This document shows positions 23,235-31,325 of a stretch of DNA of 64,000 nucleotides, one piece after another (position 1 is the stretch's first letter; every line of letters begins with the position of its first letter). The position numbers were made by a program, and so were the translations under genes. Source of the DNA: Sporolactobacillus vineae DSM 21990 = SL153. Lineage in GTDB: Bacteria; Bacillota; Bacilli; Bacillales; Sporolactobacillaceae. Under the pieces are notes generated by a model, which saw nothing but the letters and a program-made list of their open reading frames with translations, did no database searches and was not told where the DNA came from. The DNA is taken from the NCBI RefSeq assembly GCF_000377985.1, contig NZ_KB899044.1:186001-250000 (forward strand), read 5' to 3'.

Positions 23235-24020
23235 ATGGACAACCGGTCTGTCAGCATGGTCAAGATAACGCTTCACCATGTTCGATCCAATGTCGGATCC
23301 TCTCAGAACAGGTATCTGCTGTGGGCACGAGGTTCATTGGATCTTTCCGTTTATTATTTTAATTATAATCTGGACCGTTCCGACCTGGTTCCAATTGTGA
23401 TGTCCCTTAATTTTGTTTCCATGATTTCAATCTTTTTTATCCTGGCGATTGCAAAACATATCGGCAAACGCAATACTATGTCCTTAGGCCCTGGACTTGG
23501 AATTTTCGGACAAATGATTACCGGGATTGATGCTTATGCAGGCAGCATCACAATCACAACTGTGATTACCGGAACCATCATCGTTCAATTAGGATTTGGC
23601 TTCATCTTCGAACTGATGTCAGTGATGCTTGCCGACACTGTTGACTACGGTAAATGGATCAGCGGCGTACATGCGCAGGGATTACCATCCGCTTCAAGTT
23701 TTGCCGTAAAATTTGGCATGGGTATCGGCGGAGCCGTATCTGCCTTAATCATGTCTTATGCATGTTATACACCTGGAACCGTTCAGTCTTCGGGAGCTCT
23801 GACTGCGATCGAATTCAATTTCGTCTGGCTGCCGGCTATTGGTTTTGCCATTGCAGTCCTGGCCCTGTGTTTCCACCATGTTGATAAGCACGAAACTCAG
23901 ATCATCTATGATCTCAATAAACATCACCATGCAGAAGCCTGGCACCAAAGAAAATTCGATCACTTATACGATGTCGTGACAAATGCACTGCTCTTGAGAC
24001 GTTTGATCCCATCCGTTTAA
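23235..24020 (+). pseudogene. N-terminally truncated GPH-family sugar:cation symporter
   Basis: The homologous part (from about 23330) has the helices of the C-terminal half of MelB/XylP/LacS-type glycoside-pentoside-hexuronide symporters: SLNFVSMISIFFILAIAKHI, MLADTVDYGKWISG then QGLPSASSFAVKFG, and SGALTAIEFNFVWLPAIGF. Family members are about 450 residues with 12 helices; only about 6 remain, and the first 30 codons look unrelated. It probably arose by deletion of the 5' half. Terminators flank it on both sides. Confidence 0.75.
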
Positions 24021-24943: not shown

Positions 24944-25500
24944 GCACGTTCCACGCTCCCGGCTGGCTAAATTTGCTTATCAACTCATTGTTATTCAAGA
25001 ACAACGCTGTTTGGGGGTCTTAATCATAAGTTTCAACACAGATCGTAATCATACATCTTAGACAAACAATATTAAACTTATTGTGAGATCTCCCCTCACC
25101 CACCGGCACCAGGCCTATCATACGTCTTTTTAACCCACTGCTCTAATTCAGCCCGGAACTTCTCTTTTTGTTCATCGTTTTGAAACATCTTTTTGAATAC
25201 TCATTATGTGAAAAAGAATTGCACCTTCTCCGTCTCCGTCGTCTGCACAGACAGGAAGCAGAGAAACAAAAGGTGTGCGCCGCTCTTACGCCGTTCTTAT
25301 CATAATCTTATTCCAGCATAATTTGGTAGACATGAATCAGTAAATCATTTGTGTCCCATAAATCTCTTAAGCTGCATGTTCATATGGAGCGTCTCCCCCT
25401 TACCTTGTATGTTTGGTTCTCGCAAATTAATCATACCAGGGAGGGACTCCTTTATTGTTCAATCTAGCATAAAAATGTTCATTCCAGAAAAACCCAAAAA
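24944..25500. other. Gene-poor gap with short minus-strand frames
   Basis: About 560 bp without a convincing gene. Two short minus-strand frames stand out. The first is 25096-25188 (30 codons, MFQNDEQKEKFRAELEQWVK, then a stop soon after), which looks like the end of a small protein. The second is 25345-25434 (29 codons, MINLREPNIQGKGE onwards), preceded by AAAGGAG. Neither could be assigned; both may be relics. Confidence 0.3.
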
Positions 25501-25504
25501 ATAT

Positions 25505-25533
25505 TTGACATATCTCTGGTTGAGTTGTATATT
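25505..25533 (+). promoter_or_regulatory. Sigma-A type promoter of the leader/transporter unit
   Basis: The -35 box TTGACA (25505-25510) and the -10 box TATATT (25528-25533) are separated by exactly 17 bp. The start site would fall about 25 bp before the leader peptide ATG at 25567. Confidence 0.75.
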
Positions 25534-25566
25534 AATTCACAATTAAAAGTAAAAGAGTGAACATAA

Positions 25567-25626
25567 ATGTTAGCAAACCATGCAGCTATTATTCGAATTA
25601 TTATCAGCGCCATTATCATTATTTGA
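25567..25626 (+). CDS. Isoleucine-rich leader peptide of a putative attenuator
   Basis: A 19-codon frame reads MLANHAAIIRIIISAIIII and then stops: 9 of 19 residues are isoleucine, encoded by ATT and ATC. It lies between a good promoter and a strong terminator (25677-25714), immediately before a transporter gene. The segment CATGCAGC (25579-25586, codons 5-7) is exactly complementary to GCTGCATG (25635-25642) just after the stop, forming a hairpin that a ribosome stalled at the Ile codons would disturb. This is the layout of amino-acid attenuators such as ilv leaders. In isoleucine starvation, stalling would allow readthrough. A precise antiterminator helix could not be established by eye. Confidence 0.72.
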   Translation: MLANHAAIIRIIISAIIII

Positions 25627-25676
25627 TAATGCGGGCTGCATGTTGTTGTCCGCAAAAAAGCGGGCAGGGCTAGCGA

Positions 25677-25714
25677 GGCTAGGAACTGTCAAAGGTTCCT
25701 AGCCTTTTTCTTTT
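25677..25714 (+). terminator. Attenuator terminator upstream of MHS-type transporter
   Basis: The perfect 10-bp stem GGCTAGGAAC / GTTCCTAGCC has an 8-nt loop and is followed by TTTTTCTTTT. It lies 50 bp after the leader peptide stop and 85 bp before the transporter start. Confidence 0.9.
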
Positions 25715-25799
25715 ACTCTTAATGAATCATTGAACGAGGAGGCAGAGAAAATTTTTTCGTTCGGGTTTTAATTAGACTGTTACTTGGGGGGATTTTTTG

Positions 25800-27116
25800 A
25801 TGAATGGTGTTGCTGTTGATGAATCATTCGTCGGTGAAACATTAAAGCGAGATTCGGTTAAAACCGTTATCTTTGCTTCAATGATCGGAACAGCCATCGA
25901 ATTTTTTGACTTCTATGCTTATGGAACCGCTGCTGCTGCTTATTTTCCGAAGGTCTTTTTTCCTGAGGTAACGCCGACAATTGCGACGATTCTGAGCTTG
26001 CTGACCTTTGGTGTTGCTTTTGTTGCCAGGCCATTAGGCGCATTTGTTTTTGGCCACTTTGGCGATAAGATCGGCAGAAAAAACACTTTAGTTGTTTCTC
26101 TGCTGTTAATGGGCGTTTCAACCGTCTTAATTGGAGTTTTACCAAGTTATAACACTTTAGGCCTGACAGCTGTCTTACTGTTATGCACATGTCGTTTTGT
26201 TCAAGGAATCGGTTTAGGAGGAGAGTGGTCAGGTGCTGCTCTAGTGGCAACTGAAAATGCTCCTGCTGACAAACGTGCTTTATATGGTGCTTTTCCAGAA
26301 TTAGGTGCGCCATTAGGCTTCTTTTTAAGTAATGGTCTATTCTTTGTTCTTGAAAGTATTCTAACACCAGCACAAATGATCACTTTTGGTTGGCGTGTTC
26401 CGTTTTTGGCTTCTGCTTTATTAGTTATCGTCGGCTTATGGGTGAGAGCAAGAATGCAAGAGACTCCTTTATTCCGATTCGCACAAAAGAAAAATAAAGT
26501 TACCCGCTCACCCTTATTAACCGTTTTGAAAACGAGTTGGCGCCAGCTGATCCAGGGTACATTTATTGTCTCTGTTACATATACCCTTTTTTATACACTG
26601 GCAACCTGGTCATTGGCCTATGCAACGACCAATCTAGGATTTACCAACCGTGAATATTTATTCTTACTGATGGGGGCTGTTTTCGTATTTGCCGCATTTA
26701 TTGTGATTGCCTCGTTAAATGCCGATCGATTTGGCCGGCGGAAGGTTTTGATTTCTTCATCTGTAGCCCTCATCGTCTTTTCTATTGTCTTTCCCTACTT
26801 ACTTCAAGGTCACCAGAATTTCTTTGGCGCTGCTGCTTTCTTAGTCATTGGATTTGCTTTAATGGGGATTGCTTTTGGACCGGTCGGTGCCATTTTGCCA
26901 GAATTATTCAAAACTGAAGTCCGTTATTCAGGTTCCGGAATTGCCTATAATCTGGCGGCCATTGTAGGTGCTGCCTTCACGCCAACCATTGCAACTTGGC
27001 TAGCTGCCACCTGGGGCATCAAGTCTGTTGGACTTTATCTAGGAATCATGGCTGTCGCTTGTTTCGTTTCGTTAATCACTGTCAAGGAAACTAAAAATGT
27101 CGATTTTACGAAATAA
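25800..27116 (+). CDS. MHS-family major facilitator (metabolite:H+ symporter)
   Basis: 438 residues with 12 predicted helices; ATG at 25800 follows GGGGGGA by 7 nt. MHS-family features are visible: SMIGTAIEFFDFYAYGTAAA in helix 1, RPLGAFVFGHFGDKIGRK in the loop 2-3 signature, RFVQGIGLGGEWSGA in helix 4-5, and a repeated DRFGRRKVL in loop 8-9. The family carries shikimate, 2-oxoglutarate, proline/betaine, citrate and other organic acids with protons. Upstream is an isoleucine-codon attenuator, which suggests the substrate is isoleucine, a branched-chain 2-oxo acid or a related precursor; that is inference. AT-rich codon use differs from the right half of the window, so it may have been acquired horizontally. 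Confidence 0.85.
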   Translation: MNGVAVDESFVGETLKRDSVKTVIFASMIGTAIEFFDFYAYGTAAAAYFPKVFFPEVTPTIATILSLLTFGVAFVARPLGAFVFGHFGDKIGRKNTLVVSLLLMGVSTVLIGVLPSYNTLGLTAVLLLCTCRFVQGIGLGGEWSGAALVATENAPADKRALYGAFPELGAPLGFFLSNGLFFVLESILTPAQMITFGWRVPFLASALLVIVGLWVRARMQETPLFRFAQKKNKVTRSPLLTVLKTSWRQLIQGTFIVSVTYTLFYTLATWSLAYATTNLGFTNREYLFLLMGAVFVFAAFIVIASLNADRFGRRKVLISSSVALIVFSIVFPYLLQGHQNFFGAAAFLVIGFALMGIAFGPVGAILPELFKTEVRYSGSGIAYNLAAIVGAAFTPTIATWLAATWGIKSVGLYLGIMAVACFVSLITVKETKNVDFTK

Positions 27117-27723: not shown

Positions 27724-28365
27724 ATGAGTAAAGTCCTTGTCATTGAAGCGCATCCGGATACCGACAAATTTTCCAGCAGCCTGACACTGGGCAAGACTTT
27801 TCTGGATGCCTATCAGGAGGCGCATCCGGACGATGAAATTACCGTGCACAATGTTTCCGTTGAAATGAACTATCCGCTCAATGCAACGGCACTGGCAATC
27901 TATCACAAAACAATTGACCGGAAGCCGCTGTCGGAGCCTGAGCAGTTATTTGAAGAGGGACGCCAGAAATGGCTGGACGAATTTATCAGCGCCGATAAAT
28001 ATGTCTTCATCAACCCGATGTACAATCTCTTTATCCCGGCAGAGATGAAGAGCTATTTCGATCTGGTCATGCAGGTGCCGTACACATTCGTATACACACC
28101 GGAAGGCAATCCGCAGGGTGTGCTGAAGCACAAGAAGGCGATTCATCTGCAGTCCGCCGGCGGGTTCTATCATGGTGAAAGCGGCCATCCGGATCTGAGT
28201 TTCCTGGACATGGCGGATACTTATGTGAAGACCATTCTTAGTGTCATGGGAGTCACCGATTATCAGGCGCTGTTTGTCGAAGGTATGGACCACGAACCTG
28301 AGCACGCCGAAACGATTGAAACCGCTGCCTTCGACAAAGCGGAAGAATTGGCGAAGACATTCTGA
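27724..28365 (+). CDS. azoR: FMN-dependent NADH-azoreductase
   Basis: 213 residues; ATG at 27724 has GGGAGTG upstream. Flavodoxin-like fold: the FMN-phosphate loop EAHPDTDKFSSSLTLG (about 8-23), INPMYNLFIPAEMKSYFDLV (FMN isoalloxazine loop, about 96-116) and the QSAGGFYHG segment (about 144-152) match AzoR family enzymes, which reduce azo dyes and quinones as homodimers using NADH. A strong terminator follows at 28386. A 166-bp piece of a related azoR is found again at 31046-31211. Confidence 0.92.
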   Translation: MSKVLVIEAHPDTDKFSSSLTLGKTFLDAYQEAHPDDEITVHNVSVEMNYPLNATALAIYHKTIDRKPLSEPEQLFEEGRQKWLDEFISADKYVFINPMYNLFIPAEMKSYFDLVMQVPYTFVYTPEGNPQGVLKHKKAIHLQSAGGFYHGESGHPDLSFLDMADTYVKTILSVMGVTDYQALFVEGMDHEPEHAETIETAAFDKAEELAKTF

Positions 28366-30732: not shown

Positions 30733-31045
30733 CTAATAATACCCCCAATCTCAGATACAATTCCCCCAATGAGCATGAACGATCCAACCATTGGTAAAAA
30801 TCCCGGAATGTTCTGATTGAAAAATTTTTCGCCCTGTCCTATAATTATATTTTTCCAATAACTTTTCCTTTTGTCAAGGACACCGGCAATCTGGCGGCTT
30901 ATAATCGGTGAATAAGAAATTTTATTTCTACTTGTTGGTCAAAGTTAATGAAGAAATACTTTATCTTTCTTCATTGATCACAACCGGAACAGACATAGCA
31001 CGAACCATTGTTTCCAATTATTTCCATGAATATACGCGACCACGC

Positions 31046-31211
31046 TTTATCAGCGCCGATAAATATGTCTTCATCAACCCGATGTACAATCTCTTCATCC
31101 CGGCAGAGATGAAGAGCTATTTCGATCTGGTCATGCAGGTGCTGTACACATTCGAATACACACCGGAAGGTAATCCGCAGGGCGTGCTGAAGAACAAGAA
31201 GGCGATTCACT
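31046..31211 (+). pseudogene. Internal fragment of an azoreductase gene (partial azoR copy)
   Basis: 166 bp match azoR at 27982-28147 with about 7 substitutions; the translation FISADKYVFINPMYNLFIPA onward is the FMN-binding middle of the enzyme. An open frame runs through it from 30908 but its first 46 codons are unrelated, and it stops shortly after the match. Both ends of azoR are missing. The rest of the 30733-31325 gap holds no recognisable gene. Confidence 0.85.
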
Positions 31212-31325
31212 TGTCCCTGTCCCAGTAATAAATATAGAGACATATGTTCTCTTTTCCTGTATGATTAATGTATCCCTAAATGAGCGTCCCGGTACAGCCC
31301 CTAATAAACAACGGGAGACTTGTGT

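Follow-up and report, generated by a model that had tools for sequence, protein, structure and literature searches.

What does a short reading frame rich in isoleucine codons do in front of a transporter gene, and what does it say about the cargo? The question arises in a 64,000-nucleotide stretch of the genome of Sporolactobacillus vineae DSM 21990 = SL153 (contig NZ_KB899044.1, positions 186,001 to 250,000; hereafter the window), where a predicted 438-residue, MHS-type (metabolite:H+ symporter) MFS transporter is encoded at positions 25800–27116 behind a promoter, a leader peptide frame and a terminator, all on the forward strand. From sequence comparison, we consider it highly probable that these elements form a ribosome-mediated transcription attenuator which reads the supply of isoleucyl-tRNA and controls a probable importer of branched-chain amino acids (BCAA), chiefly isoleucine. 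Ribosome-mediated attenuation is itself a classical mechanism, known from the enterobacterial his and leu attenuators, in which a codon run in a leader peptide is combined with a relay of alternative hairpins. What is probably new here is the type of target and the probable regulon to which it belongs.

Leader region of the window

A sigma-A type promoter, TTGACA-17-TATATT, which matches 11 of 12 consensus positions, lies at 25505–25533 and is followed by the 19-codon frame MLANHAAIIRIIISAIIII (25567–25626), whose nine isoleucine codons comprise seven ATT and two ATC. Codons 5–7 of this frame together with one preceding base (CATGCAGC, 25579–25586; segment 1) are perfectly complementary to GCTGCATG (25635–25642), located 3′ of the stop codon. 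This 8-bp helix is present in the minimum free energy fold and would form if no ribosome covers segment 1. An intrinsic terminator hairpin of 13 pairs (25675–25706; −21.5 kcal/mol) stands downstream and is followed by TTTCTTTT, the T-rich run reaching 25714. An earlier, sequence-only reading had described a promoter with 17-bp spacing, a 19-codon frame with nine isoleucine codons, an 8-bp helix between leader codons 5–7 and the sequence after the stop, and a terminator with a T-run ahead of the transporter, and all four were recovered here.

The 260-nt leader region folded better than 200 of 200 shuffled sequences (z = −5.8), and none of 2000 first-order Markov sequences modelled on the region contained an ATG frame of 10–40 codons at least as rich in isoleucine. 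Promoter-like and terminator-like sites between 24500 and 28000 were near the shuffle level (7 versus 7.2 and 6 versus 3.7, respectively), and their significance therefore rests on combination and conservation. In four related loci (L048, L049, L050 and L052), identical promoter boxes with the same spacing precede the leader by no more than 80 nt.

No Rfam 15 family matched the window leader at the gathering cut-off, and none matched over the leader in 10 loci at E values up to 0.5. A T-box (RF00230) was absent from the window locus and, at the gathering cut-off, from the loci of eight relatives. The sole Rfam match in the whole window was a SAM riboswitch (RF00162) at 704–804 on the reverse strand (85.2 bits). 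At locus L128, a T-box match of 92.6 bits (cut-off 93) was seen on the other strand, about 0.8 kb away.

Alternative pairings in the leader RNA

Alignment of 29 leaders (alignment A2, the source of all pair counts given here) revealed four successive, mutually exclusive pairings, namely A:B, B:C, C with the 5′ arm of the terminator (C:D), and the terminator itself (D:D′). Segment A is GCGGGC, found after the stop codon, B is GCCCGC or GTCCGC, and C is GCGGGCAG or GCGGACAG. In the window, A (25631–25636) lies right 3′ of the stop codon and has 25648–25653 as its partner, within segment B (TTGTCCGC, 25646–25653), which can pair with either A or C. The 5′ part of C (GCGGGCAG, 25660–25667) can pair with B or, through GGCAG (25663–25667), with CTGTC at 25686–25690, while its 3′ part, CTAGC (25670–25674), contributes to the predicted antiterminator by pairing with GCTAG (25678–25682) of the terminator arm.

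Standard pairs filled 94.6, 89.7, 88.2 and 87.2% of cells for A:B, B:C, C:D and D:D′, respectively, against 63.1, 49.6, 51.0 and 60.5% in the best slid controls. The covariation score was also above the slid maximum for each pairing (A:B, 0.187 versus 0.127; B:C, 0.193 versus 0.133; C:D, 0.241 versus 0.140; D:D′, 0.404 versus 0.203). Two-sided changes were present in 5 pairs of B:C and 11 pairs of D:D′, more than in any slid version (maximum 3 and 5), and locus L062 offers a striking compensated case, with A, B and C reading GTGAGC, GCTCGC and GCGAGC. Eight leaders of a second type, from Limosilactobacillus and Ligilactobacillus, showed a longer A:B helix by eye and stand outside these counts. 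Taken together, the predicted pairings are those of a relay attenuator of the his/leu type. The attenuator proposed by the sequence-only reading is thus supported, with the addition of a conserved antiterminator that was absent from that account.

The relay suggests how the switch may work. When isoleucine is plentiful, the ribosome would reach the stop codon and cover A, B would pair with C, and the D:D′ terminator would form and stop transcription before the transporter gene. When isoleucine is scarce, the ribosome would stall in the isoleucine run over segment 1, leaving A to pair with B and C to pair with the 5′ arm of the terminator, which would permit read-through. If the leader is not translated, segment 1 would hold A, and B:C pairing would make termination the default. 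We infer both the stalling and the response to starvation from this arrangement.

For a window RNA ending just past the antiterminator, A:B with C:D was more stable than B:C with the inner part of C:D (−21.1 versus −17.1 kcal/mol). We then placed a ribosome at different positions, taking the RNA to be available for pairing from 13 nt 3′ of the first base of the A-site codon, and calculated the expected number of C:D pairs. The values that follow come from a second version of the test, chosen after the first result, in which the RNA was three bases longer and the terminators of L081 and L085 had been corrected. The mean over 39 leaders was 9.5 pairs with the ribosome stalled on isoleucine codons, 7.6 with the ribosome at the stop codon and 3.4 without a ribosome. 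The stalled mean exceeded the value at the stop in 29 of the 39 leaders and the value without a ribosome in 38. The corresponding values for the window were 8.0, 4.8 and 3.9.

These results bear on the alternative that there is no regulation and the region holds a short transcript with an ordinary terminator, the transporter being served by a promoter of its own that we do not see. The strong terminators that come after the leaders would fit this. However, A:B and C:D are conserved despite excluding B:C and D:D′, and the promoter scan found no promoter-like site between 25707 and 25800, so we regard an unregulated transcript as very improbable.

Conservation of the leader among transporter relatives

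We examined the best 80 named relatives of the transporter from a longer list, 43 of which are Bacillota. A short leader rich in isoleucine, or in isoleucine and valine, was present at 36 of these 43 loci, starting about 220–370 nt before the transporter match (about 490 nt in L065). The sequence-only reading had staked its case on the small frame and its isoleucine codons being kept in related genomes, as they are here. The 36 include three thin leaders with four isoleucine codons each (L057, L062 and L064). No such leader was found at the remaining seven Bacillota loci, three of which have little or foreign upstream sequence (L053, L054 and L069; the others are L066, L067, L074 and L075).

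The leaders range from MLATRAAIIRIIIISAIII in Sporolactobacillus through MTTNTNILIIIIISAIIN and MRKTTAIINVNVVVIAQDIIVI to MSTVTKQMQNNSIIIIRIIL. Codon positions shift, codons are gained and lost in frame, some ATT and ATC codons are interchanged, and isoleucine is exchanged for valine. The window and L048 (strain THM19-2) both have nine isoleucine codons, with one codon gained and one lost in frame. A simple scan for isoleucine-rich frames missed the valine-rich leaders, which were called by eye and post hoc. When a single fixed rule for an isoleucine-rich frame was applied to 42 loci (L074 being left out), it was satisfied upstream at 26 loci in the sense direction and 5 in the antisense direction, and at 0 in either direction downstream.

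The codon usage of the leaders is skewed. The 39 leaders contain 206 ATT, 27 ATC and 1 ATA codons, against 454, 456 and 23 in the corresponding transporter genes (those of L092 and L098 read in part), and GTC accounts for 30 of 48 valine codons in the leaders but for 419 of 1473 in the genes, counts in which the loci are not independent. A bias toward less well read codons could sharpen sensing; constraint by RNA structure is another possible cause.

Two further observations concern relatives outside this pattern. Short leaders with ARIIIP or TRIIIP precede the transporter relatives of Bifidobacterium and Pseudoclavibacter (L072, L073 and L089), and the RIII leader is possibly a separate type of attenuator in Actinomycetota. 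At L236, the end of a transposase gene (DDE_Tnp_1_6) takes the place of the leader directly before the transporter, which would therefore be freed from attenuation; L053 and L069 seem by eye to have the same arrangement.

Distribution of the switch and its other targets

A covariance model, R1, was built on B:C and D:D′. At E values up to 0.1 its one match in the genome of the window was the window itself. In 301 genomes of Lactobacillaceae, the family of Liquorilactobacillus sicerae and a set that shares species with the named relative loci, R1 gave 51 matches in 40 genomes, and the transporter was found at 48 places in 45 genomes (E up to 1e-80). The attenuator was present at 40 of these 48 places, 31 by an R1 match at most 600 nt upstream and 9 by a second-type leader frame, since R1 misses most such leaders owing to their longer spacing (the leader of genome G276 was counted by eye). 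Leader frames were also seen at those R1-matched loci whose sequence was read.

Twenty R1 matches lay away from the transporter. Six were followed by ilvD (L170 and L180 by family models, four by resemblance, two of these near-identical), three by a BrnQ/LIVCS carrier (L182 by model, two by resemblance) and one by a hydroxyisocaproate dehydrogenase (HicDH)-like gene. A second HicDH-like target, L185, came from the separate R1 search that covered the genome of the window. Among solved structures, the HicDH-like protein matched L-2-hydroxyisocaproate dehydrogenase (1hyh) with an E value of 4e-115, and the second-ranked structure reached 1.8e-53. Two matches preceded an ApbE-like gene (L172 by model) and one a beta-glucoside gene of the phosphotransferase system (PTS), two had a leader but no same-strand frame of 150 amino acids within at least 2 kb, one fell at a contig end, and four had no leader; L181, L183, L189 and L250, which lack one, were taken as false. 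The ilvD-group leaders carry valine, leucine and isoleucine codons (for example MKTTNATLLQILVVRIVIM), and the BrnQ-type leaders contain isoleucine runs (MTYQSVTTEEIIISIIIIR). The presence of BCAA-codon leaders before ilvD and BrnQ-type genes therefore ties the switch to BCAA independently of the transporter.

The targets and the variability of the leaders also address the possibility of a drug-sensing leader, in which a ribosome-bound antibiotic would stall the ribosome on a fixed peptide motif and an efflux pump would be induced. An MFS gene preceded by a short hydrophobic leader is what such a system would look like. However, the leaders hold no fixed motif, their isoleucine runs shift, vary in length and are partly replaced by valine, and several companion targets are BCAA genes. 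We consider drug sensing the least credible of the explanations weighed here, and retain the attenuator that reads isoleucyl-tRNA.

Several observations weigh against this attenuator. The Shine-Dalgarno sequence of the window leader is weak, and a Shine-Dalgarno-like core was present in 33 of 39 leaders, the window's not among them. Third-base variation of the leader isoleucine codons is modest, with ATT dominant. Two-sided changes occurred in 3 pairs of A:B and 5 of C:D, numbers equalled in slid versions (up to 3 and 5), with as many cells or more. The full-length window RNA favours B:C with D:D′ (−34.3 kcal/mol) over A:B with C:D (−22.5 kcal/mol), and antitermination must therefore be kinetic. 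Ten of the 39 leaders did not fit the ribosome-position test, namely L060, L064, L070 and L089 together with six from Lentilactobacillus whose frame stops within A. Equilibrium folding of a shorter RNA that stopped where the terminator 5′ arm ends was flat for the window (0.28–0.39 stalled versus 0.32 at the stop); this RNA lacked bases that the outer antiterminator helix requires. Eight of the 48 transporter places had no switch: two lie near a contig end (G129 and G185, with 269 and 345 nt, respectively), two are in G270 (one with a transposase end in front, the other a second, partial copy), one looks foreign by eye (G339), and the others are in G266, G298 and G248. Finally, the PTS and ApbE targets are no obvious part of BCAA metabolism.

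As to these unexpected targets, the PTS beta-glucoside gene at L179 lies 3′ of the isoleucine leader MENSLFSNNNNIISAVIII, and at L172 and L178 an isoleucine/valine leader is followed, 436 and 320 nt on, by an ApbE-like FMN transferase gene. A BCAA leader with the relay is present at L175 and L184, with no same-strand frame of 150 amino acids in the following 3.2 kb and about 2.1 kb, respectively; these are putative orphan or decayed attenuators.

Substrate and direction of transport

The best NCBIfam model for the window transporter is TIGR00883 (metabolite:H+ symporter), with 414.3 bits, below the curated cut-off of 443.45; Pfam MFS_1 matched with 132.9 bits (cut-off 33.4). The leading NCBIfam models describe a metabolite:H+ symporter, a shikimate transporter and ProP, and only a remote relative was found among solved structures. 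The protein thus resembles MHS transporters such as ShiA and ProP in its best models, but differs in lying under the curated cut-off and in its substrate, probably a BCAA.

The gene neighbourhood relates the target to the sensed amino acid, as do the companion genes of the switch. By similarity grouping, an acetolactate-synthase-like gene is divergent beside the transporter in six Liquorilactobacillus loci, and an ilvD-like gene lies beside it in four Secundilactobacillus loci. In locus L227 (Liquorilactobacillus), the transporter is flanked on one side by ilvD, a PanS-like carrier, an ABC gene and then ilvC and ilvB, and on the other by ilvA and a Rid-family gene. In L228, also from Liquorilactobacillus, it is divergent to ilvB, ilvC, ilvA, an ABC gene, Rid, ilvD and a PanS-like carrier (the ABC genes of both loci and the L228 carrier were assigned by resemblance). 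No ilv gene is present among the flanking genes read beside the window transporter, and the ilvD of that host sits on another contig.

The ilvB operons of these two loci are preceded by a second, different BCAA leader (within L227:9160–10060, reverse strand, and L228:4684–5850), with the sequences MLQIGNLIQVIIILISLVIIKLRVCDLMPRLF (start set by eye) and MSSYNDQLAVRTLKNVISLIILVIIIMRECDLMPGLV. Hairpin-like sequence follows this leader, which faces the transporter leader, so that two attenuators stand back to back. The L227 ilvD has a T-box match of 84.4 bits, under the cut-off of 93.

From the sequence-only reading we had three candidate substrates, isoleucine, a branched-chain oxo acid or a precursor. 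The link to isoleucine is supported by the ilv neighbours and companion genes, and the other two are disfavoured by gene absences. Among 12 chosen genomes bearing the attenuator, ilvD was not found in eight, and in two of these eight (G140 and G323) a type-II branched-chain aminotransferase was also not found. An Aminotran_4 protein was not found in G140, G323, G193 and G276, of which G140 and G323 were tested for ilvD; it was present in G310 and G000. An oxo acid or dihydroxy acid would therefore be of little use to such cells, and isoleucine/valine is the simplest common substrate. This argument assumes one substrate throughout the family, complete genomes (they are drafts) and no rescue by another aminotransferase. 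We infer the substrate and the direction of transport from this evidence, and propose that the window transporter is a probable importer of BCAA, with isoleucine foremost.

It is possible, though rather unlikely, that the attenuator is real and the cargo is instead a branched-chain 2-oxo acid, a 2-hydroxy acid or another precursor such as threonine. MHS relatives transport carboxylates and betaine/proline, the best models named above point the same way, HicDH-like dehydrogenase and PanS-like carrier genes accompany the switch or the cluster, and ilvA lies within the cluster in L227 and L228. Conversion of such a compound to isoleucine would be hard in the genomes without Aminotran_4 and, in two cases, without ilvD, an objection limited by the reservations just given and by the chance that the substrate differs between species.

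Export of isoleucine/valine or of an inhibitor, with the leader reading a correlated quantity, is improbable. Sequence does not reveal direction, but a gene switched on at low isoleucine would have the wrong sign for an exporter, and the ilvD and BrnQ-type companions would obey the same logic. Import of isoleucine and other BCAA remains our preferred reading, and a transporter of no assigned substrate thereby gains a concrete candidate, isoleucine/valine.

Origin of the cassette

In a tree of 58 rows, Liquorilactobacillus sicerae is the partner of the window and L048 (100/100). All three belong to a group of eight rows (95/92) whose other members are Liquorilactobacillus apart from one Ligilactobacillus and one Lactobacillus sp. 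The tree was midpoint-rooted and has long branches among its deeper rows; L092 and L098 were left out for a broken or shifted reading. DNA similarity to L. sicerae (76.7%) sets in near position 25486, which is 19 nt upstream of the −35 box, and extends to the end of the gene, and the region beyond the adjoining repeat is present in 3 of 15 genomes of the genus. Nesting in the tree, DNA similarity, patchy distribution in the genus and the single R1 match in the host together make lateral gain of the whole cassette likely. Promoter, attenuator and gene were thus probably acquired together, by Sporolactobacillus from a Liquorilactobacillus-like donor, which points to the passage of a regulated transporter, along with its own switch, from one bacterial family to another.

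The repeat (25377–25461, forward strand) lies just upstream of the Liquorilactobacillus-like stretch. The same genome has two copies close to the starts of contigs, and two congeners have one each, with weaker copies in G006 and G014.

Comparison with known systems

The window element shares with the enterobacterial his/leu attenuators a codon-run leader and a hairpin relay (1:A, B:C and D:D′ versus A:B and C:D), but comes from another phylum, has another sequence and acts on another kind of target, a transporter. Closer precedents exist. Rli60 of Listeria has a BCAA-codon leader with terminator and antiterminator, shown by mutation, but controls the ilv-leu operon through a 13-residue leader and is also under CodY (PMC5864092). 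The ilvD attenuator of Staphylococcus aureus, with a BCAA-rich leader peptide and a terminator, is supported; it is led by leucine, has 26 residues and precedes ilvD (PMC5794164). Both were compared without alignment and as far as the available parts of these papers describe them. The ilvB leaders of Corynebacterium (PMC11109978, PMC10272879) and other actinobacterial ilvB leaders (PMC1262725), as described in part in those sources, are alike in an isoleucine/valine/leucine leader and a terminator; they differ in the ilvB target and in phylum (Actinobacteria). The sequence-only reading had named ilv/leu attenuators from proteobacteria, actinobacteria and Lactococcus, with T-boxes and CodY as the usual control in Bacilli; the Listeria and S. 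aureus cases place the mechanism within Bacilli too. Leader peptides have also been reported for hisS relatives in Firmicutes (Naville and Gautheret; PMC2965389, in the part available).

Like T-box leaders (RF00230), the window element would sense tRNA charging, but it would do so via translation. T-boxes are common in lactobacilli, and at E values up to 0.001 there were 16 T-box matches in the host genome and 36 in L. sicerae. The available part of a T-box survey lists MFS among T-box-regulated transporter families and does not mention MHS (PMC2494555). Lactobacilli are not mentioned in the main text, as available, of two RNA-motif surveys (PMC8632094, term Lactobacillus; PMC11109978, term Lactobac), and open-access literature searches gave, among the matches listed, no description of an isoleucine-leader attenuator before an MHS transporter.

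We see about an even chance of a broader picture, in which an undescribed attenuator family unites ilvD, a BrnQ-type carrier, hydroxyisocaproate dehydrogenase and an MHS carrier in a BCAA regulon of Lactobacillaceae that works beside or instead of T-boxes, the MHS carrier is its transporter family's first importer of isoleucine/valine, and promoter, attenuator and gene move between bacterial families as a self-regulated cassette. For lactobacilli, the data point to a BCAA regulon based on ribosome stalling, and the switch is a candidate sensor of isoleucine for lactic acid bacteria.

Two minor features were noted on the forward strand of the window. A truncated gene at 23235–24020 encodes only the C-terminal portion of a GPH sugar symporter (profile positions 243–435 of 437), and a fragment at 30908–31228 duplicates a portion of the azoreductase-like gene at 27724–28365, as seen in the translations.

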